From positions 1,059,001 to 1,123,000 of the forward strand of contig NC_092675.1 of the NCBI RefSeq assembly GCF_964355755.1: a stretch of 64,000 bases of DNA, given 5' to 3'. The stretch is from Antedon mediterranea. Taxonomy: Eukaryota > Echinodermata > Crinoidea > Comatulida > Antedonidae. Every line of letters starts with the position of its first letter. Position 1 is the first letter of the stretch. Made by a program: the position numbers and the translations under genes. The notes under the pieces were generated by a model. It was not told the DNA's origin. It ran no database searches and worked only from the letters and a program-made list of their open reading frames with translations. Shown here in pieces: positions 3,101-58,600 of this stretch.

Positions 3101-6100
3101 ACCGTTTATTTGAGGGGAATTTATTTAAAGATCGACGTTTATTCGGTGAGTGAACATTGAGGTCAAATATCAAAAGTGATATTATTCTTCAAGTGTACAA
3201 AAATACATATATGACAAATTTGAGACAAATATTAATTCTTTTAAGACCAGTGGTTATCGAAGCATTGTCCTGACGCAAAAATTATTATTATTATTAGCGA
3301 TCCCAGTCTTTACAGTAAATACAGGGAGTACTATATAATACGTTCGACTATCCTATGATCATGTGTGACGATCTTCAGTTTATACCAGGCTATATTTATG
3401 TTCAATCTTTTACTTTTGTTTACAATAATGAATAGTAATTCGTCAAAGTAACGAATTAAAATATAGTTATTAATTCCTATTATACACTGTTGCAGAGTCA
3501 GGTTGTTGAATGGTCTGGGTGGTTAGGGTGTTCTAAAGGGATAGTTTTCTGGGTGGTAATTGTCCGGGGGGTAATTGTCCGGGTGGTAATTGTCCGGGGG
3601 GTAATTGTTCCTAGGGGGTAATTGTCCGGGGGGTAGTTGTCCAGGGGGTAGTTGTCCTAAGGGGGTTGTTGTCCTAAGGGGGTAGTTGTCCGGGGGGTAT
3701 TTGTCCGGGGGGTAGTTGTCCTAAAGGGGTAGTTGTCCTAAGGGGGTAGTGGTCCAGGTGGTGGTTGTCCGGGGGGTAGTTGTCCGGGGGGTAAATGTCC
3801 AGGGGGTGAATATCCGGATACGATAAATGACAGCTTACTTGAAGTGAATTTTCCTCGATCCTCTTCAAATTGTTTTGTGTAGTTTACCTATAGAAAAAAA
3901 AATACAATTATAGTGTTTAAAATCGCACAAAAAAATAAGAAGGTGGTGGGGAGGGGGAAACAGTCCTTGAGTACATGCTTGCCTCCTTTAAGCAAGGACA
4001 AGCCAAGCTTAAGGGGCATGACAGGAAAATACATTAATAACCAAATTGATATCCAAGAACATATTTTACATTTCCATAATGCATACAGTATATAGCATAA
4101 TAATTCAGTTTGGGTGGAGCAGTGTGATCAAGTTACTGTAATGATTATAGATTAAAGGTTAATAACACTGCATCAAGGTCTAGATCATGGAACATTCCAA
4201 AACATCAAGGTCTAGATCATGGAACATTCCAAAACATCAAGGTCTAGATCATGGAACATTCCAAAACATCAAGGTCTAGATCATGGAACATTCCAAAACA
4301 TGTTTTTGTTTATACATGAGTTCTCCATTACAAAATCAAAATATAAAGCATTTAATTAATGTAATTAATTTTATTTATAGGCATTTATTTTTCTTTAACT
4401 TTACTGTTATTGTTGTATTTTGTTGTGTTTGTTCTGAGGGTCCCAAATGATCAGCAATTGCTGGATGAATCACCCTCATTAAATATGATTCAAATAAATA
4501 AAAATAAAAAATAAACATTTGTACCTGATGTTAACCTAACCTTTAATAACGTAATAATATTGACAAAATAAAATTCTTACCTTGCTCTGATTCTGGGTGT
4601 TCTTTGCAAGGCGTTTGTTTTCTGGTGTGTCCGCAACAGCAGTGAATTTTGTTGTTGGATAATGACTAATAGTAATAGAAAAGATAATTCAGAATTTTTA
4701 AAAATTAAAAAAGCTGCGGCTGTTGAATGTGAAAAAGCATTATCTGAGGTAATTGCATGGAATGTTTTAATCTCAAATTGAAATATTCTCCACATAGTTC
4801 TACTAAAATTTAACAATGGAGAAGGAAAGAGAAGAGATTGATGTAACTCTCGTCAGACTCGTACGGAAAAGTCTTACACTTAGTTACAGTTATAACTTCA
4901 ACTCCATAACTTTATGAAGCTTACATACTGTAGTAAGGTTTACAGTACTTCCATCAACCCATATTTGGTTTTTTAAAATTTAACTCATTTTTGTAAGGAG
5001 ATAATATACTGTATTCATCTCATGTACAATGTTTCTAGTATGGATGAACACTATTAGGAGTAAGGACAACACAAACTACGATCAGACTAAACTAAAGACA
5101 CATAACACGTCATGTTTTCTATGATTTTACCAGAAAAAACAGCCAGTTAGGCCATGAATTATTGATGGCGTAGGATACCCTTAATCTGTGATAGACTGAA
5201 ATGTTTCTAAATTCATTTAAATAATCGTAACTGCTGGGGAAAGTAATTTTGAATGTTCAACAGTGAGTACATCACATTTTCCATATGTTACTTCTTGAAA
5301 TTGTTTAATATGTGGTAGAGCATTTAAGAGGTTTATGAGTCAGGCTAACAGGATGTGAGTGATATGCATGGACCAAAGTGGCAATTGTCAGGAAATTTGC
5401 TGAAAAGGCTTAAGTTACAAACTTACAGTAGTTTTTTACTCACAAATAACAGTACACAACAATATCTAAATAATATAGGTCATGATTAAATGTTTGGCTG
5501 TGGCAGGGCAGATAGGCAACCATCATGAAAGTTATGATTGTGCAGTTCGAGCCTGAAATTAACACCCATTTTCTTACTATCATCAAATAAGAAGTCATAA
5601 ATAAATTTCTAAGATTTTAGGCTATACAAATAAATGGATTCATACTTGATTCAGTTTAATTTATTCAAATATCAAGTAATCAAAGTGCACAGACTTAAGC
5701 TCTATTTACACTATCAGAAAAAGTGTTTTGCCCAAATATGGTAGTAATATGCCCAAAAATCATCATGTCCATACTGTACTGTATATGGGCACATCACATT
5801 TTTTTGTCACATAAAGTTTGTACACAGAGCTTTATATTTTTTAATTGTTTAATTGTTTTACCAGTAGAATATAGATACATACGTATTGCAATATGGTTTC
5901 TTTGAGTAACCTTTGTAGGTCTTCAATGTCAGCTTTAAGTCACATGTTTCACATCGAAAACAGCCTTTATGCCAATACTGAAAAAAACAAACAGTTACAT
6001 ACTCTAATATTATTATGTTTACTATAGGTGTTGAACAATGATAAGCGCCAGCCCGAATGATTTATCGGTTGTGATTGGTCAACTCGCTTATGTCGTGTTA

Positions 6101-10354: not shown

Positions 10355-12662
10355 CGTATCCGGATATTCACCCCCTGGACATTTACCCCCCGGACAACTA
10401 CCCCCCGGACAACCACCACCTGGACCACTACCCCCTTAGGACAACTACCCCTTTAGGACAACTACCCCCCGGACAAATACCCCCCGGACAACTACCCCCT
10501 TAGGACAACAACCCCCTTAGGACAACTACCCCCTGGACAACTACCCCCCGGACAATTACCCCCTAGGAACAATTACCCCCCGGACAATTACCACCCGGAC
10601 AATTACCCCCCGGACAATTACCACCCAGAAAACTATCCCTTTAGAACACCCTAACCACCCAGACCATTCAACAACCTGACTCTGCAACAGTGTATAATAG
10701 GAATTAATAACTATATTTTAATTCGTTACTTTGACGAATTACTATTCATTATTGTAAACAAAAGTAAAAGATTGAACATAAATATAGCCTGGTATAAACT
10801 GAAGATCGTCACACATGATCATAGGATAGTCGAACGTATTATATAGTACTCCCTGTATTTACTGTAAAGACTGGGATCGCTAATAATAATAATAATTTTT
10901 GCGTCAGGACAATGCTTCGATAACCACTGGTCTTAAAAGAATTAATATTTGTCTCAAATTTGTCATATATGTATTTTTGTACACTTGAAGAATAATATCA
11001 CTTTTGATATTTGACCTCAATGTTCACTCACCGAATAAACGTCGATCTTTAAATAAATTCCCCTCAAATAAACGGTGACCATGTCACTCCCATGAAACAT
11101 CATATGGAATAATCGGCGTCTATTTCCATTAGATTATACCCCCTCCCATTGAATAAACAACTTTCTTCCAATAAATGTCCACCTAAAAACCACCTAAACA
11201 ATAAACAGCCCAGGCCGTTTTTTCAATAAATACGGTACTTTAAATCTAGCACATCTAGGGTCTAGCGTGCTGTTAAACAGAATAATCGGTTAAAAACGGG
11301 TGTTTCGAAACTAGAGACCCGAGACCAGAGACCAGAGACCCAATACGAAAAGGGAGACCTAAATATACGAAAAGGGAGACCCACGTACGAAAAGGGAGAC
11401 CCCACTATACGAAAAGGGAGACCCCACTATACGAAAAGGGAGACCCTAATATACGAAAAGGGAGACCTAAATATACGAAAAGGGAGACCCAATTATACGA
11501 AAGGGAGACCCAAATATACAAAATGGGAGGCCCAAATATACGAAAAGGGAGACCCACTATAAGAAAAGGGAGACCCACTATAAGAAAAGGGAGACCCCAC
11601 TATACGAAAAGAGAGACCACACTATACGAAAAGGGAGACCCTAATAATATACGAAAAGGGAGACCCAAATATAGGTCTCCATTTTCGTATTGGGTCTCGT
11701 TTCAGGTCTCTGGTCTCGGATCTCTAGTTTCGAAACACCCGTTAAAAACAATTTCATTTTTACAGAAACCGGTCCTATATATTTGTCTACTTTTGGATGG
11801 GGGGGGGGGGGTAGTTGACCGGGGGTAGTTGACCGGGGGGTAGTTGTCCGGGGGTTTGTTATCCTAAGGGGGTAGTTGTCCTAAGGGGGTAGTTGTCCGG
11901 GGGTAGTTGTCCTAAGGGGGTAGTTGTCCGGGTGGTAAACATCCGGGGGGTAACTGTCTAGGGGGTAGGTGTCCTAGAACCGAAAAGGGAGACCCCCTAT
12001 ACGAAAAGGGAGACCCCACTATACGAAAAGGGAGACCCTAATATACGAAAAGGGAGACCTAAATATACGAAAAGGGAGACCCAATTATACGAAAGGGAGA
12101 CCCAAATATACAAAATGGGAGACCCAAATATACGAAAAGGGAGACCCACTATAAGAAAAGGGAGACCCACTATAAGAAAAGGGAGACCCCACTATACGAA
12201 AAGAGAGACCACACTATACGAAAAGGGAGACCCTAATAATATACGAAAAGGGAGACCCAAATATAGGTCTCCCTTTTCGTATTGGGTCTCGTTTCAGGTC
12301 TCTGGTCTCGGATCTCTAGTTTCGAAACACCCGTTAAAAACAGATGATTTCATTTTTACAGAAACCGGTCCTATATATTTGTCTACTTTTGGATGGGGGG
12401 GGGGGGGGGGGTAGTTGACCGGGGGGTAGTTGACCGGGGGGTAGTTGACCGGGGGGTAGTTATCCTAAGGGGGTAGTTGTCCTAAGGGGGTGGTTGTCCG
12501 GGGGGTAGTTGTCCGGGGGGTTGTTATCCTAAGGGGGTAGTTGTCCTAAGGGGGTAGTTGTCCGGGGGGTAGTTGTCCGGGGGGTAGTTGTCCTAAGGGG
12601 GTAGTTGTCCGGGTGGTAAACATCCGGGGGGTAACTGTCTAGGGGGTAGGTGTCCTAGAACC
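10355..12662. repeat. Right arm of the 2.3-kb long inverted repeat
   Basis: Reverse complement of 1487-3822, starting CGTATCCGGATATTCACCCC and ending GGTGTCCTAGAACC. It has the same order of blocks in mirror image: CCGGACAACTACCCC minisatellite, non-repetitive inner part (about 10640-11290), and two rounds of CGAAAAGGGAGACC and GGTAGTTGTCCGGGGG minisatellites. The inner unique part looks base-identical to its partner on inspection. The spacer between arms is 6532 bp and holds LASP exons 1-4. Confidence 0.9.
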
Positions 12663-16389: not shown

Positions 16390-16440
16390 TATTACATTTT
16401 GTGTATACCACTCATGGAGGTAATACATGTAGGCCTACCA

Positions 16441-16712
16441 CTGGTGACGGTGCTGCTGAGCATTGGAATAACATTATGGAAGGAAGCACCAAGGAGCGCG
16501 GTACCACACTGGTGACGGTGCTGCTGAGCATTGGAATAACATTATGGAAGGAAGCACCAAGGAGCGCGGTACCACACTGGTGACGGTGCTGCTGAGCATT
16601 GGAATAACATTATGGAAGGAAGCACCAAGGAGCGCGGTACCACACTGGTGACGGTGCTGCTGAGCATTGGAATAACATTATGGAAGGAAGCACCAAGGAG
16701 CGCGGTACCACA
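16441..16712 (+). repeat. 68-bp tandem duplication of the synaptotagmin-like terminal exon, 4 copies
   Basis: Units start CTGGTGACGGTGCTGCTGAG at 16441, 16509, 16577 and 16645 and are essentially identical. Each corresponds to 16309-16375 of the coding sequence (the segment encoding TGDGAEHWNDMLEAPRSAVP). The array lies after the stop codon, in the probable 3' UTR. 68 is not a multiple of 3, so it is not an in-frame extension. The last unit is followed by a second copy of the sequence around the stop (TGGCACACATTCTTCTAA). Confidence 0.9.
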
Positions 16713-17293
16713 CTGGCACACATTCTTCTAAATTGCTGGTGTCCTGTGAGTGAATGAATTTAAAGGACCTTATTAACGAGAGAAATCGCCTGTTTTCTAG
16801 TAAAATAAATGTATTCAGAACTTGTTTTTCACTTTTCGATTTTCTTTTTTGCAATCAATGCCACTAGTCGTTAAAAAATAAACGAGAAGTTTTCGTTTCA
16901 GATATTATATTAATTATTAGTAATAATAATCACTCGACTACTAGATACTAAGTACAAACACAGATAATCTGTTTAAAACAGGAAAATAAAACACTTACAT
17001 TTATACTACTGTATATCAACACATTGCATGGAGGAAATATTAGTAAAAAATAGATTTTAAAAAAACCCAGACAAAGTTACTTTTGATATTATTAGTTAAC
17101 CCAATCTCACAACTAGGTATATTATGTAAAATAGCAGTGTTTCCTCAAATAATGATGCAGTTAAAGCTGAGAGATGTAAAATAACATTATTTATTTCATC
17201 TCCCTGGTTAGTCCTTTTTAAACCCCTAGGCGGATACGCAATAAAACGTGGAGGAATCTCTAGTTGAATTAAATATTGAATGTAGTATACAAT

Positions 17294-19387: not shown

Positions 19388-22300
19388 TCACTTTTTGGCA
19401 AAGTATAATTTTTTAGTTAACATTGACATAAAGCATGGTACCTGCTTCTTGCCAATCATTGCAGGATCCCTACAGGCCTTTACTGACCGCTGAGAAACAA
19501 TATGGTTGACCAACAGAAGCATGTCTGTAAATTCCATCGTCGTTCCGTAGCGTTCCATGACAAATGAAAGAGCTTGAATGAACCAAGAACCATAGGCTGT
19601 GTCTCGGTGCGAGTAATATCCTACAGTCAATGGAAATAGCGAAAATCATTTTAAATAAAAATAATGTAACTACGTATAATATATAATATATACATTGATG
19701 AAGGCGTGTTGCCCGAAAGCTCTGCTAACTTTTCTGGCTGTTTTACTTTATCGTTTTGATTTAGCTTTTCGCTTTTATTTTGAATCTCCATTGAGATCCA
19801 GCCACTGATACCCACAACATTGTCATTTTTTCAGTATTTTGCCTTTGAATTTAAGTATATGTATAATGTTATTGTTAACATATTGTTTATAGTCAAGCCA
19901 CTAAGTAAAACAACAATGTGTGCTTGCCCTATTCAAGGGATATTTAACTTATGAAGGAAAAACTAAGAGATATTAGTTTTAATTAAAAAGCTCAACAAGA
20001 AACATATTGAAAATTAGGACTGTATCCAATGGTGTAACGTATGGGGCAAAGGTCCCTGGTTTAGCACTCCTAAGGTCCTTTAACTCGTTGCATTGGGGCT
20101 GTTCATACTCTCTGGGGCCCCTAGGATCTCACCACTGTGCATATCTCATTAATGCATATGATTTTAAATTGATAGGTAGAGGTTTACCTTCAGCTACAGA
20201 GTATGCTAAAAGAAAGTCAGCACCAGCAGGTACAGTGGGCCTTGGGCCTGCATCTGCTACATCAACATCCATTAACTCTACATCATCAAGACCATCCATA
20301 GCATCTATACCTATCTCATGGTCCTCACCACGACATGCCTTTAAAATAAACAATAGTATATATTAAATTGTTGTTAAAGTTTGTGCTCCAAATTTTAAAC
20401 CTCATATCTATCATTGTGTAATTGCATATTTAAGAACAATATTAATTTTCATTAATGTTTATTTATGGAGTATTGAGATGTACTAATTTACACAACCTCT
20501 GTAGTGGATGACATAGTTAAGAAATCATTTGTCCACAACTCTATACATGTTTCCAACTCATCATTTCAAAGATAGTTTGTTTTATTCCTTCTGTAAATAT
20601 AACTTGTTTACTAATTTCATTATAAATCTTCTACTAACCTGTATTAAAAAAATCTTTGGTTTTCCAACTAAACTTTTGCACTTTTCTCCTCTAAAACGGT
20701 CGATGAGTTCTTGTAACTTAAGTACACCATCATAAGCATAAATGACATCGTTATCACCATGAGTAAGGAAGACGCATACAAAGCAATCTGAATCTGCATG
20801 ACTCTGTAATGACACTAAAAATACAAATTGTTGTAAAGTAAAATTTCTGATATTAAAGATTTGATTTCTAAAGGAAAATTCTTAAAATCATTAAACAACC
20901 AGTAATTACTGTATCTATGCCCGGTATAGGACATGTCTTCTCAGGACTATAAACCGTAGGCCAGTGTACAAATCTAGCTTATGTGAACTTTAAAGAACCT
21001 AGTACATCTTACGAGACAAGTAGGGGTTACCCCGGTGTACTAGTACATCACAGGCACTGATCACAACTGGGCCCTCTGGGAGACCAGTCTTTGACTGAAG
21101 AAGTCGCTCAGTATAAATAAAATATTTCAATTTTAATACAATTTAAAAAAAAACACTTAATTATTAAAATAATAGTATGGATGATGAACACAAACAATGA
21201 TTGTTTTTTCCCGATGGATTAATGAAAAAATTGCCAACTTGTAGTACTAGTGTCGTACCATTTTTTAGGGCATCCCATAACTGCACGACTGTTAAATCTT
21301 GATGAACTTTGACATCAAATTGAAGCTTTGTGAGTCGTTTTTTCAAGTTGTCGACATCATGTTGAGTTCCTCGTCTACGTGGCATTTGCGTGCCCAGATG
21401 AAATTCTTCATGATTGAAAATGACAGCAACACCACGTTTTGGATGAGACATATTGTAGCTTAATAAATTCTTGTCAATTCCCTGTAAAATACTAAATAAT
21501 AATTTATAAAACATGTTATATAAATGTTTATTTGTTCAACAAGATGTATAATAGAGACCGTATAATATAGGCCTAGTATATAGCCTCTCTCTAGCTAGGG
21601 CTAGTACTGTAGTGAAATACCCCTCCGCTTAATGGTTCGGTCCACCGAGTGACCCGAGGTCATGTGTGCCGTCCCGGAGAGACCTGCGCTCTCTTGAGAC
21701 TTGGACGACATAGGATAAACACGGGATATAGACACCGCACATCGGAGGTACACTGAGTGTTTTACCGTGTTCGATATCAAGACAGAGACAGCATACCGTA
21801 GTATTTACTGTTGACAAAGGTTGGGTGATGACCTCCCAAGAGACCAGCCCACCACGACAGGTAAGCCACACTACTTTCTGCTAGTCTGATTATACTCTCG
21901 GCCGTTTTACAACATTGGCGCTGCGAGCAAAAACGTAAGCGATTAACGCCAAGTTAATTAGTTTTGGCATAGAGTTCGTTCCCACACCTGTGGGGCGACA
22001 ACGGTTCGAATTTCCCGCTGCATTTTCACAATTCCGCACGGTGTAGACTCACCGCGATTAGTGAATTTAATAAAGTGCACGGATTTTTTGTTCGACTCTG
22101 TAGGCGCTACTTGCACTGCGTTATTGCTTTTGTACCGTAACTTCATCAAGTGAATCCCATTGAGAAGTTAGACTGACAATACAGAAGAATTATAGACTGA
22201 GTATTATTTTGTTGTGGGTTTTGTTGATATAGTAAAAATATAAACTATAATAGAAAGAGTTATTTCAGTTGTTTTTAGTTCAAACGTTGTGGAAATTGAT

Positions 22301-25300
22301 TCAACGGGCGACTCCTCCATTGTGTGTTCTTTTGAATTCCTAAGACACCTGTGGGCGGATTCCGCGCATTCCATTAGTCTCATTTGCATATCGTTTTGTG
22401 TTTAGCAACTGTGATACATTTTAATTTACTATTGTCTTTCAGAAATAGAGGTTATTTTGAAACTTTGTTTATTACGATATTTTACCATTACATTTTACGT
22501 ATACTCTTTGTAAATTGGGATACGTTTCCTGTGGGGTAGAATAGGTATAATCAGCAGTCAATATATACAATTTGAATCCCTATTGATATAACACTTTGGT
22601 TTGACCTTGAATTGTTATTTAGAGTGCACTTGATTACATAAATATGCCTCCAAAAGCCAGACTGATATCTATAAATTTCTGCGACGTTACAGACTTACTC
22701 CTGGTGCCTGGTATAGGTGCTGCACGTGCTCAGAAATTATTAGACTGGAGAGGCCGTTATGGGAATATCACCCCGGTTAACATTGGGGATATAAAGGGTT
22801 TGGGGAAAACCAAATTTTCCAGATGGTTCGACTTCACCCCAAATCCTAAGCGGGGAGGGATTATCACCACAATGAACGCTGTGACATACTTAGTGGATGC
22901 ACGGAACGAAACTAGGGCTGCCAGTTTAAATCCCGCTAACGGGGACTCCACGGTTCACCGTGAGCCTCGGGGAGATGAACGGGACCGATCGTACTTCCCT
23001 GCCAACCCGGGACCGGGACACGAATTTAGATCCCCTACACTCCCGGAGGTCCCCTTACGTTCCGAGGTTGAGGAAGACCGCCCTCTTTGCGATGGTAATG
23101 GTACACCATTTAACCCGTTTGTAGGTAGCCCGGAGGGAGTTGTCCCATCCCATATGCCCGGTCAATACTCCTATGTGGATTCCTGGGGGGAACCGGAATA
23201 TCGGGACACCCCTCCTACACTTTCATCTCACGGTACACGAGTAACATCTACTGTTAGTCCTGGAATTACGCCTGTGTATTCTAGGGCCCAGGCTACTCCT
23301 CAGGCTGAACAGAATGTGAGGGGTAACACTCCCGTGGTTACTGCTAGCACCACGTCGGCGTATACCCGGCCGCACACTCCCGTCTCTCATAGGCCCCAAT
23401 ACTATAATAACAGAGGGGGTCACCCACCAGCAAGGCGGTCATCTAGAGAGGTACCTCAGAGACGCCAAGTTGATTGGGCGTATGGAAACCATGACCGTAC
23501 GTATTACGGTGGCAGCGAGAGTGAGGGAGAAAATGCCCAACCATCATTTCACACCGACCACGATGAATTCTTGGCGTCCTTCAGAGAGTTCTTACGGTCC
23601 ACCGAGCGTAGGGCTCCTAGACGACAACAACAACAACAACCACATTTTAGGTCAAAGGACATTCCTAAAAATCTGTCGTTTAGCGGGAGGGACAATTGGG
23701 TTTTATTTAAGCAGCGGTTCCTCAACTATGCTGACGAATATGGCCTCAGCGATAGGGGAATGCGCGACGCTTTTCAATGGTGCGTTACAGGTATTGCGGC
23801 AGATTACTTCATAAACCTAACTCATATGAACCGAGATTTATCTTTCAGGCATATTATAGGGGCTTTTGACGAGCGCTTCAAGGCTGAGGAATTACCTGAG
23901 GTCTTGCAAGTGAAGTTGGAGGCGGCCAGTCAACAGGAAGGTGAATCCATTGAAGATTGGAGCGACAGAGTACTCACCCTAACGAGGAAAGCTTTCCGTG
24001 AACTTCCTAAAGACTGGATTCATCGGAGAGCAGTCGTGAAATTTTGCGTGGGTTGTCTCGATGCCGAGGCCGGTCAGTATATTCTACACCAGAATCATAC
24101 TACTTTGGTGAGAGCACTGGCAGCCTACGAAAAATACATTGGTTTTAGGGAACTTTGCAATCGAGGAAGAAAGGGGCGACCAAGGGAGCAGGTGAGGCCG
24201 CACGTACGATTCGCAACTGTGCCTGACCGACGACATCACCGGTCGCCGCCCTCGTATACAATAGAGTCTTCTGAGAGTGGAGAGGAGGTAGAGGTTCGAC
24301 AGGTTGGAAAGGGTTGGACTCGCCCGGCGAGCCTCGAGAAACCTGTTGTACCTGGGCCTGTGGACAGGAAGGATCAATACGATCGCAAGGGTCCTCCACG
24401 GCCGACTCCACCTCGCACCGAGACCAGGATGGAAGCGGTCGAACGACAAGTGGGGCAGTTGAACACGAACGTCGACCAGTTGACGACCAACGTCGGCCAT
24501 TTGATGACCAGGTTTGACAGTCTATTAACGGCCTTGCATCCAACACCTACATCACCACCATCGCCGGGTAGACGGTACTCAACCTCGCCCCCGAGAGTGT
24601 GTTTTGAGTGTCGAGAACCGGGTCATTTCAGGAAGGACTGTCCTAAGCTAGCCCGACAAGTTCGACAGATTGAGTCGGAAGGTGACCAGTCGTCAAACTA
24701 GACCAGGTTGGAAGCGCAGCCCAGCTCCCCAACCTGTCACCTCGTCCGGGCTCAGGTCTTGTAACGGGTAACAAAGGTAAGTATAAGGGTAGTAAGAATA
24801 ATGGTAAGGATAATAAGAGTATTGACAATCCCCGTGATAATGGTGATAACATTAATAGAAATATTAGTCACATTAACACGGGTCAAGATAATACTAATAA
24901 TTCTTTCATTACTATGAGTAATCTTTCAGAGACAACGCTGCGATCAGACCTGCTCCCAGGTGGCGGAGACCCACCCGTGGGCACTACTTCGACGACCAAC
25001 GAATCGTTGGAACCTCGGGGTGCTGCGGGGTGGACTCGGCCAGTGGAAGTAGCCGGCACCGCAGACGAAACGGAAGAACCAATCGTTATCAATCGAGTAC
25101 GATCCAACCGAGCCTTATACACCACGGTCTACGTGAATCAGACTGAAGTAACAGCTGTGGTGGACACGGCTGCGGACCGGACAATACTCTCGGATAACGT
25201 ATACTCTCGTTTAGTTCCTAAACCACCGATTGTGGCCAAGCTTAACTTTACCCTAGCGGGTAGAGGGACATCGATGCCTGGTTACAAGGTGGGACCTATT

Positions 25301-28300
25301 CATTTTAGGCTAGGGTCGGAATCCTACACCGAATTTTTCTATGTAGCACCGATTCACGATGAAATGCTGTTAGGTCAGGATTTTCTGGTAAAAAATGGGG
25401 CCATGGTAGACTGCGGACAACTGCTGTTAACTGTAGGTGCAAGCACAGTCTCTCTGCGGGGAAATCGGGAACCCGAACCCCCGAGAACCGCTCGTGTTCT
25501 TGTCGCAAAGCGTAGAGTGATACCACCTCACTCTGTAGTGCACGTCCAATGTCAACTTTCACCTAACCATTTACCTTTACCAGATTTCTTTATAGATCCA
25601 GAGATCAACGCTTCTGTGGCAATTCCAGCTACCACACATCGAGGCCTGCGTATTCCGCACCTGTGCGTGGTCAACACATCGGACATGTACGTCACCCTGA
25701 AACAGGGACGGAACATTGCAACAGCCACAGAAGTAGATCAGGTGGAGGAGGATGGAAAAGCCAACGCTGCCGATGTATGTTCCGCAGCCAGTCATGATAA
25801 ACCTGTCTCGTCGGCAGTACCCATGCATCTGGTGGACATGCTAGAAGCGTCCCGTGCTGATCTCTCCGACTCCGAATTCGCACAATTGTCTTCTCTTATC
25901 ATTCAACATCAAGAAGCCTTCGCTTCGCATCAGTTCGATATTGGTACGTTCAAGGATATTGAGCACACCATAGATACGGGCAAGGCTCCGGCTATCAAGC
26001 AACGGCTCCGGCCAACGCCGATTCGCTTTGCTGGCGAAGAGGAGAAGGAGATAAAAAAGATGCTCCAAGCTGGAGTGATTCAACCCTCCATCTCAGAGTG
26101 GGCATCACCACCAGTCCTGGTGCGGAAGCGTGACGGCTCCGTGCGCTTCTGCATAGACTATCGAGCACTGAATAACATCACCATCAAAGATGCCTATCCG
26201 TTGCCGTTAGTAAGGGACTGCATAGATACGTTATCTGGAAACATCTGGTTCTCCAAGCTTGACGCCCTCTGGGGATACTGGCAGATCCCGATGAAGGAGG
26301 AGGACCAGAGGAAAACTGCGTTCATTACCAAGCATGGTTTGTATGAATTTGTCAAAATGCCATTTGGTCTTTCAAACTGCCCGGCTACGTTTTCCCGTGC
26401 CATGGGGTTAGTGCTACGAGGTTTGGTATGGGACGTCGTACTAGCATTTCTGGACGATATCGTCGTGCTGGGAAAAACCTTCGAAGATCACCTGAACAAC
26501 TTGACCACTGTCCTGGGGAGATTTAGGAATGCTAACCTTAAACTAAAACCCAAAAAGTGTGTTTTTTTTCAGAGAAAGGTAGAATTTCTTGGACGCATCG
26601 TCGGTGACAACTCTTTCACAGTCTCCGACACGGATGTGGAAGCCGTCCAGAACTGGCCCACGCCAACCAACCTGCGAGAAGTACAACAGTTTCTTGGTCT
26701 GGCTAACTACCACCGGGAATTCATCAGTTCTTTCGCCAACCTGGCTGTCCCGTTGTACCGTCTGACTGAGAAGGGAGTCCAATTTGTGTGGGGAGAGGAC
26801 CAGCGGATCGCTTTTGAATCTCTCAAGAACGCATTGGTTCAACCTCCTGTCTTGACGTTGCCCAACATCCGGGATGAATTCATACTAGATGTGGACGCAT
26901 CGGACCACGCCATCGGCGGTGAATTGCTGCAGATGCAAGAGGGTAAGGAACGAGTAATCGCCTACGCTAGCATCCGGCTCACCGCCGAACAGCGCAACTA
27001 CTGCACAACTCGTAAGGAGTTGCTGGCCATCGTGTACATGACCCGGCATTTCCGCCACTACCTGCTGGGCCAGCCTTTCCGGGTAAGAACCGACCACAGC
27101 AGTCTAACTTGGCTCCTTAATTTCAAAGGTCCCCAAGGACAACTAGCTCGTTGGATGGAGGAGCTTAGCCAGTATACCATGGTAGTCGAGCACCGGCGAG
27201 GTAGGTTACACACCAATGCAGACGCGCTTTCTCGTCTTGGGGGGTGTGAGCACGGCACCATCACTCCGGACGACCTGCCCTGTGGGGGTTGCACCTACTG
27301 CCGTAGGACGCATGCGAAATGGGCACGGTTCCGGGAGGATGTCGACGACGTCGTACCCATCTCCCAGATTCGACAGGCAAGTAGAGGAGTGGGTAGTGAG
27401 GGGTTTGTATGGGACCCGGGTGGTCGAGCGACCGTGGAAGTAACCCGGGCTCCCAATGGATTAACGAATATTTGTGTATTACAGGATGGGGATATGGTCA
27501 CATCGATTCAGCCGGAGACACCGACCGCCCGATGTTGGGGGTACTCCGTCAGCGAACTCCGGGACCAACAACGTAAGAATGCTGATCTCCAGCCTATCCT
27601 GCGGTGGTTGGAGCGCCAAGACGACCCCTCAACCAATGAGCTGTTCCTCTTCAGCCCGAGCACGAAGTTCTTTTGGTTGAATCGAGACCGTCTTCATCTG
27701 TCCGACGACGGCATTCTGTTCCTGAAGCACGAAACGTCGGGCGAGCGTCTTTTGGTACTGCCGAGGGGTTTGCAACTAGTTGCCCTGCGACTACACCACG
27801 ACCTCCCTTCGGCTGGACACCAAGGCATCGCCCGAACCCGTTTTCGTCTTAAGGAAAAGTTCTTTTGGTATGGTATGTCCAGGGATATCGGAAGGTATGT
27901 AGCCAACTGTGAAGTGTGTAACCGCAATAAGAAAACCGGCCGTAAAGCCCGGTATCCCTTAACAAACTTTCATGCAGGTACACCCATGGAACGGGTACAT
28001 ATCGATTTTCTTGGGCCTTTGCCTAAAACCAACATGGGCAATGTATACATTCTCATGATGGTGGACCAATTCACTAAGTGGGTTGAAGCGAGCCCACTTC
28101 CTTGTCAGACAGCGGAGGTAACGGCCCGAGCCGTGGTAGGGAATTTCTTCTCCCGGTTCGGGATGCCTCTGGAACTCCACTCTGATCAGGGGAGTAATTT
28201 TGAAAGTGAATTATTTAGTTCTTTATGTAAAGTTTTACAGATCCACAAGACCAGGACCACCAGTTACCGACCCGCCGCCAACGGCCAGGTGGAGCGATAC

Positions 28301-31300
28301 AACCGGACCCTGATGGATGCTGTGAGATGTTTTGTAGGCCGGCAGCAGAAAGATTGGGATGTGTTTCTACCACAGCTAACTGGAGCCCTCCGGGCGACGG
28401 TGAATCGCTCGACGGGGTACACTCCCAACATGCTGATGCTCGGACGAGAGATCAACCTTCCGGCCGATCTCATGTTTACAGCTAGCGACCCGCCAACTGC
28501 ACGAGCACCCGATAGCTACGTGACCGCTCTCACACAATCAATCCGTGAAGCACACGACATAGCACGGGCTACTCTGGGGGAAACGCAGCGACGCATGAAG
28601 AGAGACTACGACCTCCGAGTCCTCTCACGCCCCTACGACCGTGGGGATAAGGTATATGTGCTAGATAATAGCCAACCGAAAGGTAAATGCAAGAAGCTGT
28701 GTCCTCCTTGGAAGGGACCCGGCATCATCATCCAAGTTATCTCTCCGGGACTGTTCCGGGTCAAGCTGAGGAACAAAGTGATGGTTTTGAACCATGACAA
28801 GCTCAAGCCCTGTCACGACCGGCAGCTCCCGCGGTGGATAACTAACTATCATTTATCTCTTTCAGATCCGAGCGAGGAGAACGTCGACGATGCGCCGGGA
28901 ACGCTATACTGTTCCTGCCGGAAGCCCTGGGCTGGGTCATTCATGATTCAGTGCGATTACTGTGACGTTTGGTACCATGGCGCCTGCGTGAATGTCTCTC
29001 CTTTAGACGCTCTGAATATCGACCGCTACAAATGCGCTAATTGCAGAGACTGAGTATCCGAGCTGAAGCGATTGTAGGGTACCATTATTTAATTGTCTCC
29101 GTATTTTTGTATCTCCATAGGTTGTTTTCGGCGCAACCGACATCCGGTTGAGACAACAACGGCAAGTCAATGGACGGTGGCGTGCCCTGTCGGGAGAGGA
29201 GCAGGAGGAAACCCGGCGGCGACTACTCGCATCTGAACCTACCCTAGCCCCAACGGGGGAGGTCAGTGGAGATGTGACCGGCGTAGATACTGCCCTCGAG
29301 TCGACGCCAGAACCACCACCATCCGGCGCGCCGACCGAGGATTCACGCCCACGGCGTAAGAACCCGTGCGTGTTTCCGGGATGTAACTTCGAGGCTGTGC
29401 ACAACATGAGGAGGCACGTGTGGTCCCACCACCTCCCCTCATGTTTTAAGTTACCATCGACTCCGCAAAAAATACAGACCAAGCTCTGCCTGCTGCGGAA
29501 GTACGCCGTGGAAATATTGGGTAGGCCGGAGTCCACTTTGGACGACCTGGTCACCCAGCTGAATGCGGAGAGGGCTGTTGGTCCGCATGTAGGCGTCATC
29601 GACCAGAGGACACTGGAGATGATGTCCGAGCTACAAGCGGCGATCGGAGGTGAGCCACCTGAGGGATTTAACCTTGTGCCACTCAACCATCCAGCGGCCC
29701 TAATCCATTGGCGCTACATGGTAGCGATGGCCCAGCGGATGGACATCACTAAGATGAGCCAGCTAGCCGCCGAAGCTGAGGCCGAGAATCCCCTCGCCCA
29801 GCCCGCCGAAGCTGAGGCCGAGACTGGCCGCGCTCAGCCACCAGCCACCAAACGTAAGACCGTAAAACGCAAGAGGAGGCTCGGGTCACCGACCCCCTCC
29901 AGGCGGGAGAAGAAGATGGTGCGGACCACGATGAGAGCGTTCGACGCCCACTTCCACCCGGACCGTTTGCGCTCTTTTCTGAGGCTGTCTCCTCGAGCCA
30001 CACTGATGGAGACCTTGCTAGCTGAACCAGCTGGAGCCCAGACAAAGCCGGTAAGACCTGTTGGGGGTGTCGCCATCTTTTGCGATCCTCCCTCTTACCC
30101 TTCAGCGGAGGAGATTCATCGCCTCCGGCGGGAGGGGTATGAGGTGGGGGTCGGGGTGCACCCCAAGAAGGACGTCTCGCCTGGTCAACTCTCCCGACTG
30201 AAGGCCTTGGTGCGCTCCGGCGCTACCCGGGTGCTCGGGGAGATCGGCTTGGATCACTCCGTTCCGGTAGCTGACTGGTTCAGGCAGGAAGAGATGCTGC
30301 GGTGCCTCCTGGCACAGGTTTTCTCACCTCGACACCATCTGGCGATTTGCCTGCACCTAAGAGGCAGTCGCAACGATCCGACGGCGGAGACGTGTTATCA
30401 GAACTGCCTAAACATCTTGCAGATAGCACGGGTTCCAAGATGTGTACGCATTCTACTGCATAATTTCTCATCGACTGTGTTAATGGCCGATAGGTTTAGG
30501 AGTGTTTTCCCCCTGACCTATTTCAGCTTTACACGGTCGGTGGAGGGCTTCAACGAAGAGCAGAAGGAAGCGTGCCGACACATCTTCCGCATGGATGACC
30601 GTCGCCTGCTACTGGAATCAGATGGGCCCCACTTTGCTCCTCCGGGGCAACGAGTGGGTGCACCACATCTGCTCCATCACACCGCAGTAGGTAGTCGGAA
30701 GGATCTTAGGCCAGGACGCCGAGCAAGTTCTAGACTTGACCCGGAAGAACGGCCGAGATCTGTTCCTCATGGTGTAGAGCCGACCATTCCGGCGGCCTAC
30801 CAGAAGTTTTAAGTTATTTTATTATGTTATTTTTTGTAAGGTGCCAGAAGATGCACCAGATTCAGTTATCTTAGCGTTAACCAAAAGTTATTGTTTTATT
30901 TTACAGCATGACCACCCGGGCACCGGCCCTGGCCTTATAAAATCGGGGGAAGTGTAGTGAAATACCCCTCCGCTTAATGGTTCGGTCCACCGAGTGACCC
31001 GAGGTCATGTGTGCCGTCCCGGAGAGACCTGCGCTCTCTTGAGACTTGGACGACATAGGATAAACACGGGATATAGACACCGCACATCGGAAGTACACTG
31101 AGTGTTTTACCGTGTTCGATATCAAGACAGAGACAGCATACCGTAGTATTTACTGTTGACAAAGGTTGGGTGATGACCTCCCAAGAGACCAGCCCACCAC
31201 GACAGGTAAGCCACACTACTTTCTGCTAGTCTGATTATACTCTCGGCCGTTTTACAACAGTACTAGTAGTAGCCTAGCTAGGCTAGGCCTAAATGCTAAT

Positions 31301-35700: not shown

Positions 35701-38700
35701 CTGTAATCATATAGTCCTAACTCCTAACTCTCAAAATTTATTAACTGGACGTGTATTGTAAACAAAAATTGTCACATCTTGAGAATTAGGAAAACATGAA
35801 TCTGCGTATTACGAAACATTTAAACTACATTTTTTGGTTGACATTTTAGATTAGTTGATGGAGAAAGTGACAACATTGGTCGTGTTGAAATTCGTGCAGA
35901 AGTCAAGCCTGGTAAAATAAAATGGGGGAAAGTATGTCATGATAAATGGGAACAAGAAGATGCAGACGTTGCCTGTCGACAGTTAGGATTTTCACGGTAA
36001 ATAACATGTAAATGATTACTCCATGCTCTGACACGCGTGTAATATTCGTGCGGATTTTGTATACATCCATACAGCGAGGAGCCCTTTAGCACTCGTTTTA
36101 GCAAGCATGCAATGTTTCGACATGACACTCGCTTCTCTAACATTTCTTTTTACAGTAGTTGAAGACAAAAATTGTACATTGTCTCATCGCTTCTTTTAAA
36201 GTGTCTTCATCGATCAAAACTGTCTTTTATAGGGGTGCAAAGAAAGTCATTAAAAATGCAGAGAGAACATTTGGGCCAGGCAAACTTAATTTCTTTATGG
36301 ATGACGTCGAGTGTTCTGGAACCGAAGAAGCTTTACAGCTTTGCACATTCGGAAAGAAGGGTAGTAATAAGTTCGGTAGAGGTAATTGCAAGGATAAGAA
36401 AGTCAGGACTGCCGGGGTCGAATGCTGGATCAACCAGCTAACAAGTATGTGTAACTAAAACTACTATTGATTTATTATTTTCAAAACAGTATTTCAGCAG
36501 CAACAAACATTTCGTCATAGTAGGCCTACGAGAAGTGAGTTTCCAATGATAATCATTTTTAATATGACACTGGACTGAAATACAAGTGTTCATATATCTG
36601 CTAGCTCTATAATGTACCGTATTTATTTATTTTTATCAAAAAGTATGTACAATTTTGTTTGCAGCTCCAGCTCCAGATATGCTACACAAATTCGCTAAAT
36701 TTGCCAACGCAGCAATTCCAGCAAGCAACAACATACTAATAGAAAACATGGATCCCGGAGCATGCGCATTAAGATGTATACGAGAGCAAAGCTTCACGTG
36801 CAGATCGTTTGATTTTGACAAAACAAAAGAGAGATGCTGGTTAAGTGAAGAAAACTCACGATCGGTTTCCTTGAGTTTCAGTTATCGAGACAATCCTTAC
36901 GATTATTATGAACGAATTGATATAGGTATGTATTAATTAGTGTGACTTCTTGGTCAACATTTATATTTAAACTGAATATATGTGTGGAATAGAAGCGTAA
37001 TGTGTTATTATATGATCTGATGAAACAAGGCTTGAATATTAACTCAGAATCAAATGCTTTACAGTTAACATTTCAATATATACAGTACATATAGTACTAT
37101 GTATTTCCATAATATTACTTCCCATTAACTTGTAAAGAAAATCTTCGTTTTATATTTATAACTGTAGTAAAGTTTCTGTCAGACTTTTATAAGTGACAAT
37201 GACTTGCTGTTGGTATGGATAATTGAAATAACTAAAATAAAAACGTCATAATTACACATTGCCTTACATTATTTATGGATGATACAATTAGTAACAAACT
37301 TTTATATAACTTAACAATTTTCTTTTTTAGGACCTGTATCATCTTTTCAAATTGTACCCAATTCTGCGTTGCCAGGTCAGAATATGATAGAATATCGCAA
37401 TACTATGCTAGAAAAGTGTGCTGAACTTTGCCTCGCTGCTGCGTTTCAATGCGCATCTTTTGACTTCTCACGTAAAACAAGCCAGTGTTGGTTAAGCAGT
37501 GCAAATCGTACAACGGCGAGTGTGCCACTACGGAGTGATTATCCGGACAACCCGTATGATTATTACGAACGCAAAGGAACATGTTTGTATTACTTTTAGC
37601 ATTATTTTTATACTATTATAACAAACTCATATTCAATAGTTGGATGGAAATCTACCGTATCTAATACGATATACACCTTAGTTTCTCCAACTTTTCCAAA
37701 CTGCTGATTTTCTAAATGACTTTGAAAACAAGATGAGATGCGCCTTTAGTGCAGCGCATATACATCTGAATCCCAAAGGTATAAAGTATACATGTAAATC
37801 ATTTGTAAGGCATTGGAGTTTAGTGCAATGATTCATCATTTCTTTAATTCATTCCGTAAATAGGCCTACATAATTAACATATAATTTAAAATTTGTTTTC
37901 TTGCAAATATATAATATTTTATACTACCTATACCTATTGGATAATGCAAAGACTAACCATAAGAAAGAACAAAAGTGACGCACCAACATAAGTACAAGTC
38001 CTTACCAATCCAAGAGGATCATACAAGTTATATACACAAATGTACTAAATAAAATAACTAATTTATGCATTGATCTTTCAGCTGCTCGCGAGTGCGTTGT
38101 TGGAAAAGGAGAATTATACAGAGGAAAGGCATCTATGACTGGTGGAGGACAAAGATGCGCCAACTGGCAGGATGTTGGCAATGCAGTAGACGTCAATCCT
38201 ACAACATTTCCAAATACAGGTAATTCATGTTTTTGTATTACTTTAGGCAGTACAAATCAAATAAACGTTTGCATTTATCATTGTAATAAAATAAGGGTTA
38301 AGGTTTTAACTTTCAGTACAGAAAATTCAGTGACAAATAGCGAAGATTGATACAGTATATAAATGACAGATTTATTGATATGATAGCCAATCATAGCATT
38401 CTTCAATAACACTAACATGTCCATTATTTTAATTCATGTTGCGAGTTATTATATTGAGAAAGTCCTTATTCACATCCTTTAAACGTATGTTAAACTTGCA
38501 GGACTTGGTGACCATAATTTTTGTCGAAATCCTGATGGCGATGAAAAACCGTGGTGTTACTACTATGTGTCTTCGAGTTCTATTGCTGGTTTGCAGATCG
38601 TGAGTGGTTGGGATTATTGTAGTGTTTCTGCTTGTGGAGATCCAACAGGAAAGCCTAATATATTAACTCCTACTCAAGATATTAGTAAGTAACTGTCAAT

Positions 38701-55600: not shown

Positions 55601-58600
55601 ATAGTAATAGCATAAGGCATTGCGATAAATAAATAAAAGTCATCTACTGGGACTCGAACTCACAAAGATTAGTCCACCGTGTCATTAATTAGTAATTATC
55701 TGTATATTATTCTTCGCAAGGTAAGGTGAACGCAACGCCTAACTAGCCTAGGCAGGCTTATTTACATAAGGAGGCCTAGCTACCCAACCAATCAGATATT
55801 CTACTGGTTGTTTGCTACATAATATAGCAGATATTGTCTTTTATAGCGGTAAAATATAATATTTGACATACCCTTGGGAATGATATTTTGTTCAAATGAA
55901 TATATATTTCCCTGAGCTTGCGCTTCGGGAAACATTCCCTCAGGGATGTCAAATCTTATATTTCACCTTTAAGCAGGCAATATTTGTATATTACTGTACT
56001 ATAAAATCATAGTTCTACAGTAACCTTTGTGGTACACATACCTTCCATTACGGGGGCTAGGAGTTGAACTTCTTGATTCGTTCATTTCGGATGCCACACA
56101 AGGTCCTACCCTTAATGCAACATTTATTGCACTATAAAACCAAGACCAATGATTGAAATATTAAGTACACATATAACACAATGATTACAATGCAAAATAA
56201 ATGTTGTTAAAATACATGATGAAGTTTAGGTGCATACACATACACATTGATTTCCCTGCACAATAACTTACATATTTGGGTGTGGCTGAGAAGGTAAGCA
56301 CACTGCTGTGTGATCTACAATGGAACAATGCTTACTGGAGCTAGGGGCGCACGCTCTCCCTTTCACCAGTTAAAATGATATCATGCTCTACTTTATAACT
56401 TTTTGACATACTATTATAATTATATGTTAGCACTCCCCACCCCACCCCCCCCCCCCCCAAAAAAAAAAATCTGTGAATTATCAAATAATACTTGCTATTG
56501 AGATTGGGAAAAGACTTATTTTCAGATGTAAGGACAATCCTAAACTCTGTCTACACTATCAAACTTTATGTGACAGAAAAATGTGATGTGTCCATATATG
56601 GACATGATGATGTCATATCACTACCATATTTAAGCATATCACTACCATATTTGGGGACATCACACTTATTTTTAATTTTCCAAACTAGTTTAATAGTGTA
56701 GACAGAGTTTCACAGCATGTTAATGTTATACAGATATTGTTATATTAATGAAATATATATATACAGTATAAATAAATGAGCTTCCTAAGTAGCCTACTTA
56801 CCCTTCTATGTGATCTCTTGATTCATTGGGAGCAGCGTTTGCTGGCCTGTCCCATGAACTACTAGAACTAAGGGAGTCACTAGAGTTGCCACTGCTGCCG
56901 CTGTCACTTCCAGGCCCTTGATGCCTACTCCAGCCACCTGAAGGTGGTAACCGACGCCCTAGGGCAGGTGAATTGTCACTGGATGTGGTCTCTGGTGCAC
57001 TACTATCAATGCTTGCCATTTCTATATTAAAACCAACTTCTTTTTTAGTTTTAAGCTTTAAACATTATACAAGAATTTGGATATTAATGATTCAAAATAT
57101 TAAATTGAAATATTTTTGTTTTGTTCATTATGCTGGGGGTAAACATAAGTTGCAAAAGTGATTTGTTTACTGTTTTTGATCAATAGTTTATTATTGATTG
57201 GCCAACAGTTAATTATCATTCTCATTCCTAATAAAGTTGCAGAATGCCTACTATAAGTATGAGCTCACATTTAAAAGTAAATCATTAATGAGATAGGGGA
57301 ACAACTGTAGTTTCAATTCACAAATGAAAAGAAATATTAACCTCGACTTCTCTTTGTATGTCGTCCAAACATTTTGTCCCACTTAGATGGGTTACTGCTA
57401 CAAGAGGCACCGCCATGTGCACCAGCAGCTTCCTCCTCCCAGCTTGTAACCATAGAGGCACTTTTCCCAGTCTGCTGTTGTGCTAACATACTTTGAACAT
57501 GTTCATGCTCAAGGCAGTCTTTAGAGGAGCCGCTTCTTCTAGCGTTTCTATCTTCAGAATCGCATGCGCCACTCCGTGCACCATCTAGATGTTTTGCCCG
57601 TCGGCCTTTGCTATCAACGGATTGGTTTCCTTTCTTCTGGTCATGGTTTGTGGTTCTAGCCTCATGACTAGATGCTCTGTTGACAACATGGTGATGTGGT
57701 TGTTCCCTTCTTGATGCTTCACTAACAGTTTGCCTTGATGCCGTTGATTGAAATGTAGGTTTATTTGGAGCTATAGAACTTGGAATACACTGCACAACTT
57801 TCTGTGTAGGACTTAAATGCTGTTTGTCCAAGAATGCATCTAATATCTGAAGTGAATATTGATAAATATTGTTAATGGTACACTTTGTTATTTTCATTAT
57901 TTAAAAATTATCTAAAATTTGACATCAATCAAACAACCTTTTCAAGTCAAAGATTACAAAAACTTATTTTTGTTAAAATGTATACTTCAAGAAACAAATA
58001 CTTTTAAGACTGTATATAGTTCAAGGGAATAATTTGGGGAAATGTGAGGGGGGGGGGGAGGGATTGTACTTGGTCATATACCATTCTTTAATATGTAAGA
58101 TAAAGATTTATGTAGAAGAAAGGTGATTGTATATTAATGCTATACTGTAACATTTAATTTATTGTTTATATTTATATTGATGTATTTGGGCCAATGGCTT
58201 ATGTATAATAAATGGCCTAGGCAATGCTCGTAGGAAAGAAAGAAAGTAATTCACTGAATACAAACCCTTCTAAGCCTCGTCTGGTCATCTCTGTAGTGCA
58301 TACACATGGACAAAGCAAGAAAGTAATACACTGAATACAAACCCTTCTAAGCCTTGTCTGGTCATCTCTGTAGTGAATACACATGGACAAAGCAAGAAAG
58401 TAATACACTGAATACAAACCCTTCTAAGCCTTGTCTGGTCATCTCTGTAGTGAATACACATGGACAAAGCAAGAAAGTAATACACTGAATACAAACCCTT
58501 CTAAGCCTTGTCTGGTTCATCTCTGTAGTGAATACACATGGACAAAGCAAGAAAGTAATACACTGAATACAAACCCTTCTAAGCCTCGTCTGGTCATCTC

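Follow-up and report, generated by a model that had tools for sequence, protein, structure and literature searches.

Capture of an enzyme gene as the third open reading frame (ORF3) of an LTR retrotransposon is a known kind of event, since the bdelloid rotifer elements Juno and Vesta carry DEDDy-exonuclease and GDSL ORF3s (PMC5408684, available sections) and known accessory domains include a DnaQ-like exonuclease (PMC6338049, available sections). As in the element described here, the rotifer enzymes, one of them a nuclease, sit in the position of env, and their expression is attributed to spliced mRNAs; they differ in having the DEDDy/DnaQ fold, not that of TatD, and in belonging to bdelloid elements, most lineages of which are rotifer-specific (PMC5408684, available sections). 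The word TatD does not occur in the text of that paper (PMC5408684). Among the matches listed by full-text search, in one case the best 25 of 1,514, and with a coverage that leaves most subscription journals and bioRxiv outside, no entry pointed to a TatD-bearing retroelement. This agrees with an earlier sequence-only reading of this DNA, whose author knew of no described Ty3/gypsy lineage defined by such a nuclease. The Group II TatDs (TATDN2, TATDN3, YcfH, YjjV) share with the ORF3 of the window's clade the Pfam family, the barrel, the HxH motif and the other expected ligand positions. ORF3 differs from them in being encoded by a retroelement, in having a zinc finger and a basic segment ahead of the barrel, and in having lost five of six ligands in one clade. 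As far as we searched, the TatD fold, a probable LTR-encoded start and a selected clade with a dead catalytic site are new; a new enzyme fold thereby joins the short list of env-replacing genes captured by LTR retrotransposons. ORFs called TATDN2, ZMYM1 and POGK are drawn within the giant squid Hox cluster in a published figure (PMC6962438, available sections), and mobile elements might likewise be the carriers of such TATDN2-like ORFs elsewhere among invertebrates.

The window, the whole stretch of 64,000 nucleotides analysed here (Antedon mediterranea NC_092675.1, 1,059,001 to 1,123,000), contains a 9.65-kb LTR retrotransposon at 21608-31259, with the following features in window coordinates.

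21604..21607, no strand: target-site duplication GTAC, left copy (flanking sequence)
21608..21914, + strand: 5' LTR, 307 bp (306/307 against the 3' LTR)
21828..21860, + strand: putative first coding exon of ORF3 within the LTR, 11 codons, in frame with 29121 and followed by the donor CAG/GTAAGC
21916..21932, + strand: primer-binding site TGGCGCTGCGAGCAAAA (sequence; identical site in the dead-TatD elements)
22644..24701, + strand: gag (PF00098, above the Pfam cut-off)
about 22656-22823, + strand: helix-hairpin-helix at the Gag N-terminus (HHH_3, below the Pfam cut-off)
24594-24647, + strand: CCHC knuckle in Gag (Pfam)
24686..29053, + strand: pol, encoding protease, reverse transcriptase (RT), RNase H and integrase (Pfam), overlapping gag in another frame
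28910..29044, + strand: PHD finger at the Pol C terminus (PF00628, 5.2e-07)
29076..29120, + strand: pyrimidine-rich splice acceptor ...ctccatag, its AG kept in 4/7 copies compared, the window included
29121..30812, + strand: ORF3 exon 2, 563 codons (open reading frame)
29367..29432, + strand: C2H2-like zinc finger (C83, C88, H99 and H104 do not vary among the five ORF3s aligned in A2)
29850..29918, + strand: basic segment of 23 residues, possibly for nuclear localisation (read off the translation)
29940..30683, + strand: TatD domain (Pfam 1.7e-19 and fold searches; ligands H277, H279, E374, H412, H447 and D501)
30687..30812, + strand: 3' part of ORF3 outside the frame of its relatives, with the barrel end altered (alignment with relatives)
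30940..30952, + strand: purine-rich tract preceding the 3' LTR (sequence)
30953..31259, + strand: 3' LTR, 307 bp (306/307 against the 5' LTR)
31260..31263, no strand: target-site duplication GTAC, right copy (flanking sequence)

A single base separates the two LTRs. Paired LTRs, a short target duplication, a purine tract and a primer-binding site, which we take to be of tRNA-Ser type, are all present, as expected of a Ty3/gypsy-type element. Pfam matches in Pol cover RT, RNase H, the zinc-binding and core domains of integrase and the C-terminal PHD finger, together with protease matches, one of them barely above cut-off; the order protease-RT-RNase H-integrase is that of Ty3/gypsy-type elements. 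The capsid region of Gag gives PNMA and Ty3_capsid matches, both sub-threshold. The element is probably autonomous and a recent insertion, of Ty3/gypsy type by its LTR structure and domain order, from a lineage whose Pol ends in a PHD finger. The helix-hairpin-helix block at the start of Gag, also below cut-off, was found again in most related elements with a Gag match.

The sequence-only reading had proposed that a TatD-family nuclease forms the third ORF of the element, and both a Pfam and a fold search bear this out. Residues 274-521 of ORF3, between Pol and the 3' LTR, match TatD_DNase with an E value of 1.7e-19 (70.6 bits against a gathering cut-off of 27), and this is the sole Pfam match in the ORF. 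The motifs that had been named (DAHFH, GEIGLDH, CLHLRG, LLHNF and ESDGP) are present and fill the six expected ligand positions, numbered here as residues of the 563-aa open frame. Among them is the HxH (Group II) motif common to TATDN2 and TATDN3; the positions other than HxH are presumably metal ligands as well. A profile (A5) built from four crinoid ORF3-type proteins and P0006, a metagenome TatD serving as outgroup, matched 12 solved sequences, of which 11 are named TatD, YcfH, YjjV, TATDN3 or related DNases and the remaining one 'uncharacterized metalloprotein'. The best match was S. aureus YcfH (6.8e-21), and human TATDN3 was found at 2.2e-6. Foldseek returned seven PDB chains at E<=1e-3 for the window ORF3 model, five of them named TatD/YcfH deoxyribonucleases, and nine for the model of P0005, an NCBI-annotated Anneissia protein of the intact type, seven of them named TatD/YcfH enzymes or TatD hydrolase. 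The other two chains in both searches belong to yeast 3e2v, which is labelled 'uncharacterized amidohydrolase' and which we assume to be a TatD homologue. Confidence in the barrel is only moderate in both predicted models; the window model has a mean pLDDT of only 47, with ten-residue blocks of 50-89 across residues 311-490.

The zinc finger, basic segment and TatD domain described earlier are thus all present, but the C-terminal end of the barrel is out of frame in this copy. Beyond roughly residue 523 the window ORF3 runs outside the family frame, and its final ~38 residues as listed therefore do not form the end of the barrel. The family C-terminal sequence can be read from this part of the DNA in a different frame, and the relatives P0005 and P0127 have this ending in frame. 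By this measure the window copy does not encode a complete TatD barrel.

The 563-codon frame at 29121..30812 exists as originally listed, but its first base is probably an exon boundary and not a gene start. The frame opens right after ...ctccatag and its first ATG falls within the zinc finger, so the start of ORF3 probably lies elsewhere. The LTR reads ATG ACC TCC ... CGA CAG/GTAAGC at 21828-21860, and joining this exon to the frame at 29121 gives 574 uninterrupted codons. This predicted junction probably places the beginning of the gene within the LTR, at ATG 21828. A start codon within 29121-30812 was also considered and is unlikely, given that the first ATG lies in the zinc finger and that the LTR exon accounts for a start.

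The predicted signals recur in part of the copies. The exon is covered in seven related LTR stretches, six of which retain its frame, at 33 or 27 nt, while L011 does not; the donor GT is intact in six and lost in L004; the acceptor AG is lost in three of the seven copies compared (L003, L005 and L019). Conserved positions are only slightly more frequent in the exon and donor (222/273) than in the remaining LTR (1388/1815, pooled), so that the evidence for the exon lies in position and frame, not in strong conservation. In the dead clade, that is, the sister clade with altered ligands described below, six copies without pol have AAG/GTAAGC at the matching place of the LTR, while in the autonomous L039 and L040 the LTR donor site is altered and scores under cut-off. 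An ATG of ORF3 stands two bases past the acceptor in all six dead-clade copies L031, L033, L034, L039, L040 and L041. The window also has an acceptor-like ctctttcag upstream of the PHD finger, ending at 28865, and a CAG acceptor-like site precedes the PHD finger in 8/10 copies (absent in L005 and L034). An env-like expression of ORF3, as a spliced third gene after pol, is possible on these predicted signals, which some of the copies retain.

A six-frame search of the genome (354 Mb, 18 contigs) with ORF3 found at least 84 matching pieces. We examined 17 other ORF3 loci of 9-10 kb, and in 15 of them ORF3 directly follows Pol or its PHD part in the same orientation; the two without a Pol match are L042 and L048. 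ORF3 is therefore not unique to the window copy, and elements in which it follows Pol, which the sequence-only reading had suggested looking for, do exist. On the same count we reject the idea that ORF3 is a host gene that happens to lie beside an element.

We built a midpoint-rooted FastTree of Pol from the seven TatD-bearing Antedon elements with enough Pol and 45 relatives, drawn from 120 listed among 1243 matches. The seven group together at a local support of 1.0, which fits a single acquisition. Pols of Ty3/gypsy type with a PHD finger, from marine invertebrates and metagenomes, have the same domain order and up to 64% identity in the integrase-PHD part. None of these 120 relatives has TatD among its Pfam matches; the comparison covered their proteins, and the DNA downstream of them may carry an ORF3. 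Only two of the 120 have tails of at least 100 aa, and the best match of these to ORF3, in a repetitive tail, has an E value of 0.02. Scans of IMG/VR with ORF3 and Pol found no relatives, and a scan of GTDB with Pol found five distant loci, none of them informative. One metagenome Pol ending in a PHD finger (P0118) contains a KptA/Tpt1 RNA 2'-phosphotransferase at residues 1065-1234 (E 4.2e-43), in the interval between integrase and PHD finger; it is a second captured nucleic-acid enzyme within the lineage of PHD-ended Pols.

Protein searches with ORF3, over the best 8000 candidates each, returned three crinoid proteins and P0006, and the closest proteins among these candidates are from Anneissia japonica and A. 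mediterranea. TatD-ORF3s thus occur in two crinoid families. In a tree of the TatD domain (23 rows; 14/20 inner branches open and long branches warned of by the program), the Anneissia proteins nest within the diversity of Antedon ORF3s. For this reason the ORF3 lineages probably predate the Antedonidae-Comatulidae split, or else moved between hosts. The dead clade adjoins P0005 at 94/88, slightly under the program's mark, and the wider group has 97/100.

Counting the window, the ORF3 loci fall into 26 distinct places. All six ligands are present at four of these (window, L003, L004 and L012). Eight decayed places keep the intact pattern in part (L002, L009, L011, L017, L019, L027, L030 and L046), and one place gives mixed readings (L029/L047). 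At the remaining 13 places, which belong to a sister clade, five of the six ligands are lost, H,H,E,H,H,D having become C,H,R,E,A,N; six of them show exactly this pattern, and the others depart from it by an additional change or lack a column. In L031, whose ORF3 has an intact frame of 570 codons, the motifs read DACFH, GRVGLDH, CLEVSG, LLADY and GSNGP, and Pfam still finds TatD (2.1e-8, 34.3 bits). P0004 from Anneissia is without two of the ligands, through changes of its own (DSHFN, GPIGLDH).

The TatD domain is under purifying selection across copies. We counted non-synonymous and synonymous differences (N:S), leaving out codons with several differences and taking p values from simple binomials. 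In the window's clade, N:S is 1:11 for window-L003, 14:37 for window-L004 and 28:53 for window-L011, with Nei-Gojobori omega values of 0.09, 0.14 and 0.21. In the dead clade, N:S is 18:41 for L031-L042 (p 9e-11), 4:14 for L031-L041, 12:23 for L031-L039, 26:43 for L031-L043, 17:27 for L031-L034, 16:20 for L031-L040 and 21:30 for L039-L042, and omega is 0.10-0.36 for L031 against L034, L039, L040, L041, L042 and L043. Omega is higher between decayed dead-clade copies (maximum 0.90, L034-L040) and between the window and the decayed L037 (0.46), which we attribute to decay after insertion. The divergence within the dead clade followed the ligand loss, so that the purifying selection on its TatD domain also dates from after the loss. 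The conserved function is therefore not simply nuclease activity. Inactive derivatives are known elsewhere: Maelstrom and EXD1 are inactive nuclease derivatives that have kept RNA binding, and one Athena family has GDSL derivatives without catalytic residues (PMC5408684, available sections).

It had been argued earlier that retention of all six ligands suggests a working enzyme. This is plausible for the window's clade, where a nuclease is probably retained, but the full set occurs at only four of the 26 places, the window copy is itself frame-shifted near the C terminus, and the sister clade was kept after losing five of the six. This suggests that nuclease activity is dispensable in the sister clade and that its barrel is kept for binding, packaging, targeting or interaction with a partner. 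One could alternatively suppose that catalysis is the function throughout, with ORF3 as a working nuclease acting on cDNA or hybrids and with a remodelled metal site in the changed clade. The four places with six ligands and the low omega among window, L003 and L004 agree with this, as does the consistency of C,H,R,E,A,N at six places, where Cys, His and Glu could bind zinc. However, replacement of E by R, of H by A and of D by N strips most of the expected metal site, and such a pattern of ligand loss resembles that of pseudoenzymes. We consider continued catalysis in both clades unlikely.

Six elements (L031, L032, L033, L035, L036 and L049) have a Gag frame, the PHD region and ORF3 at least in part, and gave no RT or integrase-core match. 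The Gag frame has 818 codons in L031, L032 and L049 and is shorter or broken in L033, L035 and L036; ORF3 is complete in L031, L032 and L033, whereas those of L035, L036 and L049 are truncated or interrupted. The LTR pairs of L031, L032 and L033 have 0, 1 and 2 mismatches and are flanked by the 4-bp duplications CTAT, CAAA and GTAG, showing recent transposition. The repeats are less clean in L035 (225 bp, 97.8%), L049 (328 bp, 97.0%) and L036 (149 bp, 99.3%). Over the six copies, N:S is 83:49 for Gag (p 0.002), 18:17 for ORF3 (p 0.008) and 4:0 for the PHD region; within ORF3 it is 10:11 for the N-terminal part (p 0.013) and 8:6 for the TatD part (p 0.19). The pol-less copies have the primer-binding site of the window element and LTR ends like its own (TGTTGTGA..TCACAACA against TGTAGTGA..TTACAACA), so that an element of the window type could mobilise them. 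In rotifers, TelKA2n is comparable: it is non-autonomous and lacks most of pol but has env (PMC5408684, available sections). Two further loci were noted in these searches. A young LTR element at L044:1918-6464, with LTRs identical at 245/245 positions, a gag-like remnant and a primer-binding site different from that of the window element, has a 419-codon ORF in which TatD is missing and the likeness to ORF3 is confined to the zinc-finger N-terminal module. L045 has a similar ORF of 420 codons on the reverse strand, and others like it occur at several other places.

These data bear on whether ORF3 is a mere passenger, a host TatD gene transduced once that persists without benefit to the element. 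Many ORF3 copies are indeed decayed by stops, and the rotifer ORF3s, unlike the crinoid TatD ORF3, show no significant departure from neutrality (PMC5408684, available sections). Against this stand the excess of synonymous changes in both clades, the recurrent splice signals, the retention of ORF3 in pol-less elements and the presence of TatD-ORF3s in two crinoid families, and we regard the passenger explanation as very improbable.

We think it rather probable that the recent Ty3/gypsy-type element of the window encodes, by splicing, a zinc-finger/basic/TatD ORF3 protein for which binding is the more basic role and cutting a role in the window's clade. An ancestor would have gained, as its third gene and in the env position, a Group II (HxH) TatD nuclease in fusion with a preceding zinc-finger module. 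A spliced mRNA would link the short LTR coding exon to ORF3, and the resulting zinc-finger/basic/TatD protein may move into the nucleus and bind nucleic acid of the element. In the window's clade it might also cut or trim DNA, as a 3'-5' exonuclease or an AP endonuclease; AP-endonuclease and exonuclease activities have been shown for other TatDs (PMC10085689, available sections). The likeliest substrates would be cDNA ends, hybrids or gaps at integration. A binding or scaffold role would be the more basic one because the sister clade lost the catalytic site and yet kept the protein, even in pol-less elements. As a bolder and less likely possibility, the dead nuclease may have turned into a protein that binds nucleic acid, is under selection and is required in cis, starts at an LTR-internal splice exon and is kept by pol-less elements. 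If this is true, the barrel would be a scaffold for packaging, targeting or integration, a function of which we know no example for the TatD fold.

ORF3 could instead act on the host and not on the DNA of the element, through piRNA-linked hybrids, R-loops or repair intermediates. R-loops have been connected with TATDN2 in two settings, medaka germ cells and cancer cells deficient in BRCA1 (PMC12709183, available sections), and ORF3 is a separate and possibly nuclear product; nothing in our data points to a host target, however, and we find such an anti-host role decidedly unlikely. The sister clades offer a natural experiment, with intact and ablated active sites both under purifying selection. 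The pol-less copies are parasites of a parasite, which kept the dead enzyme while the reverse transcriptase is gone. Together they make the role of ORF3 enzymes for retroelements directly testable.

Outside the element, the window has several other repeats. Two copies of a foldback-like structure lie at 1492-3807 and 10370-12655; they contain tandem arrays with units of 15 bp (GGACAACTACCCCCC) and 22 bp, the order of which is mirrored, and are possibly the terminal arms of a DNA element. Near-perfect tandem arrays occupy 58235-59395 (77-bp units), 578-1222 (65) and 16439-16716 (68). At 36613-37599, ORFs with repeated Cys patterns were seen, which presumably resemble PAN/apple exons.
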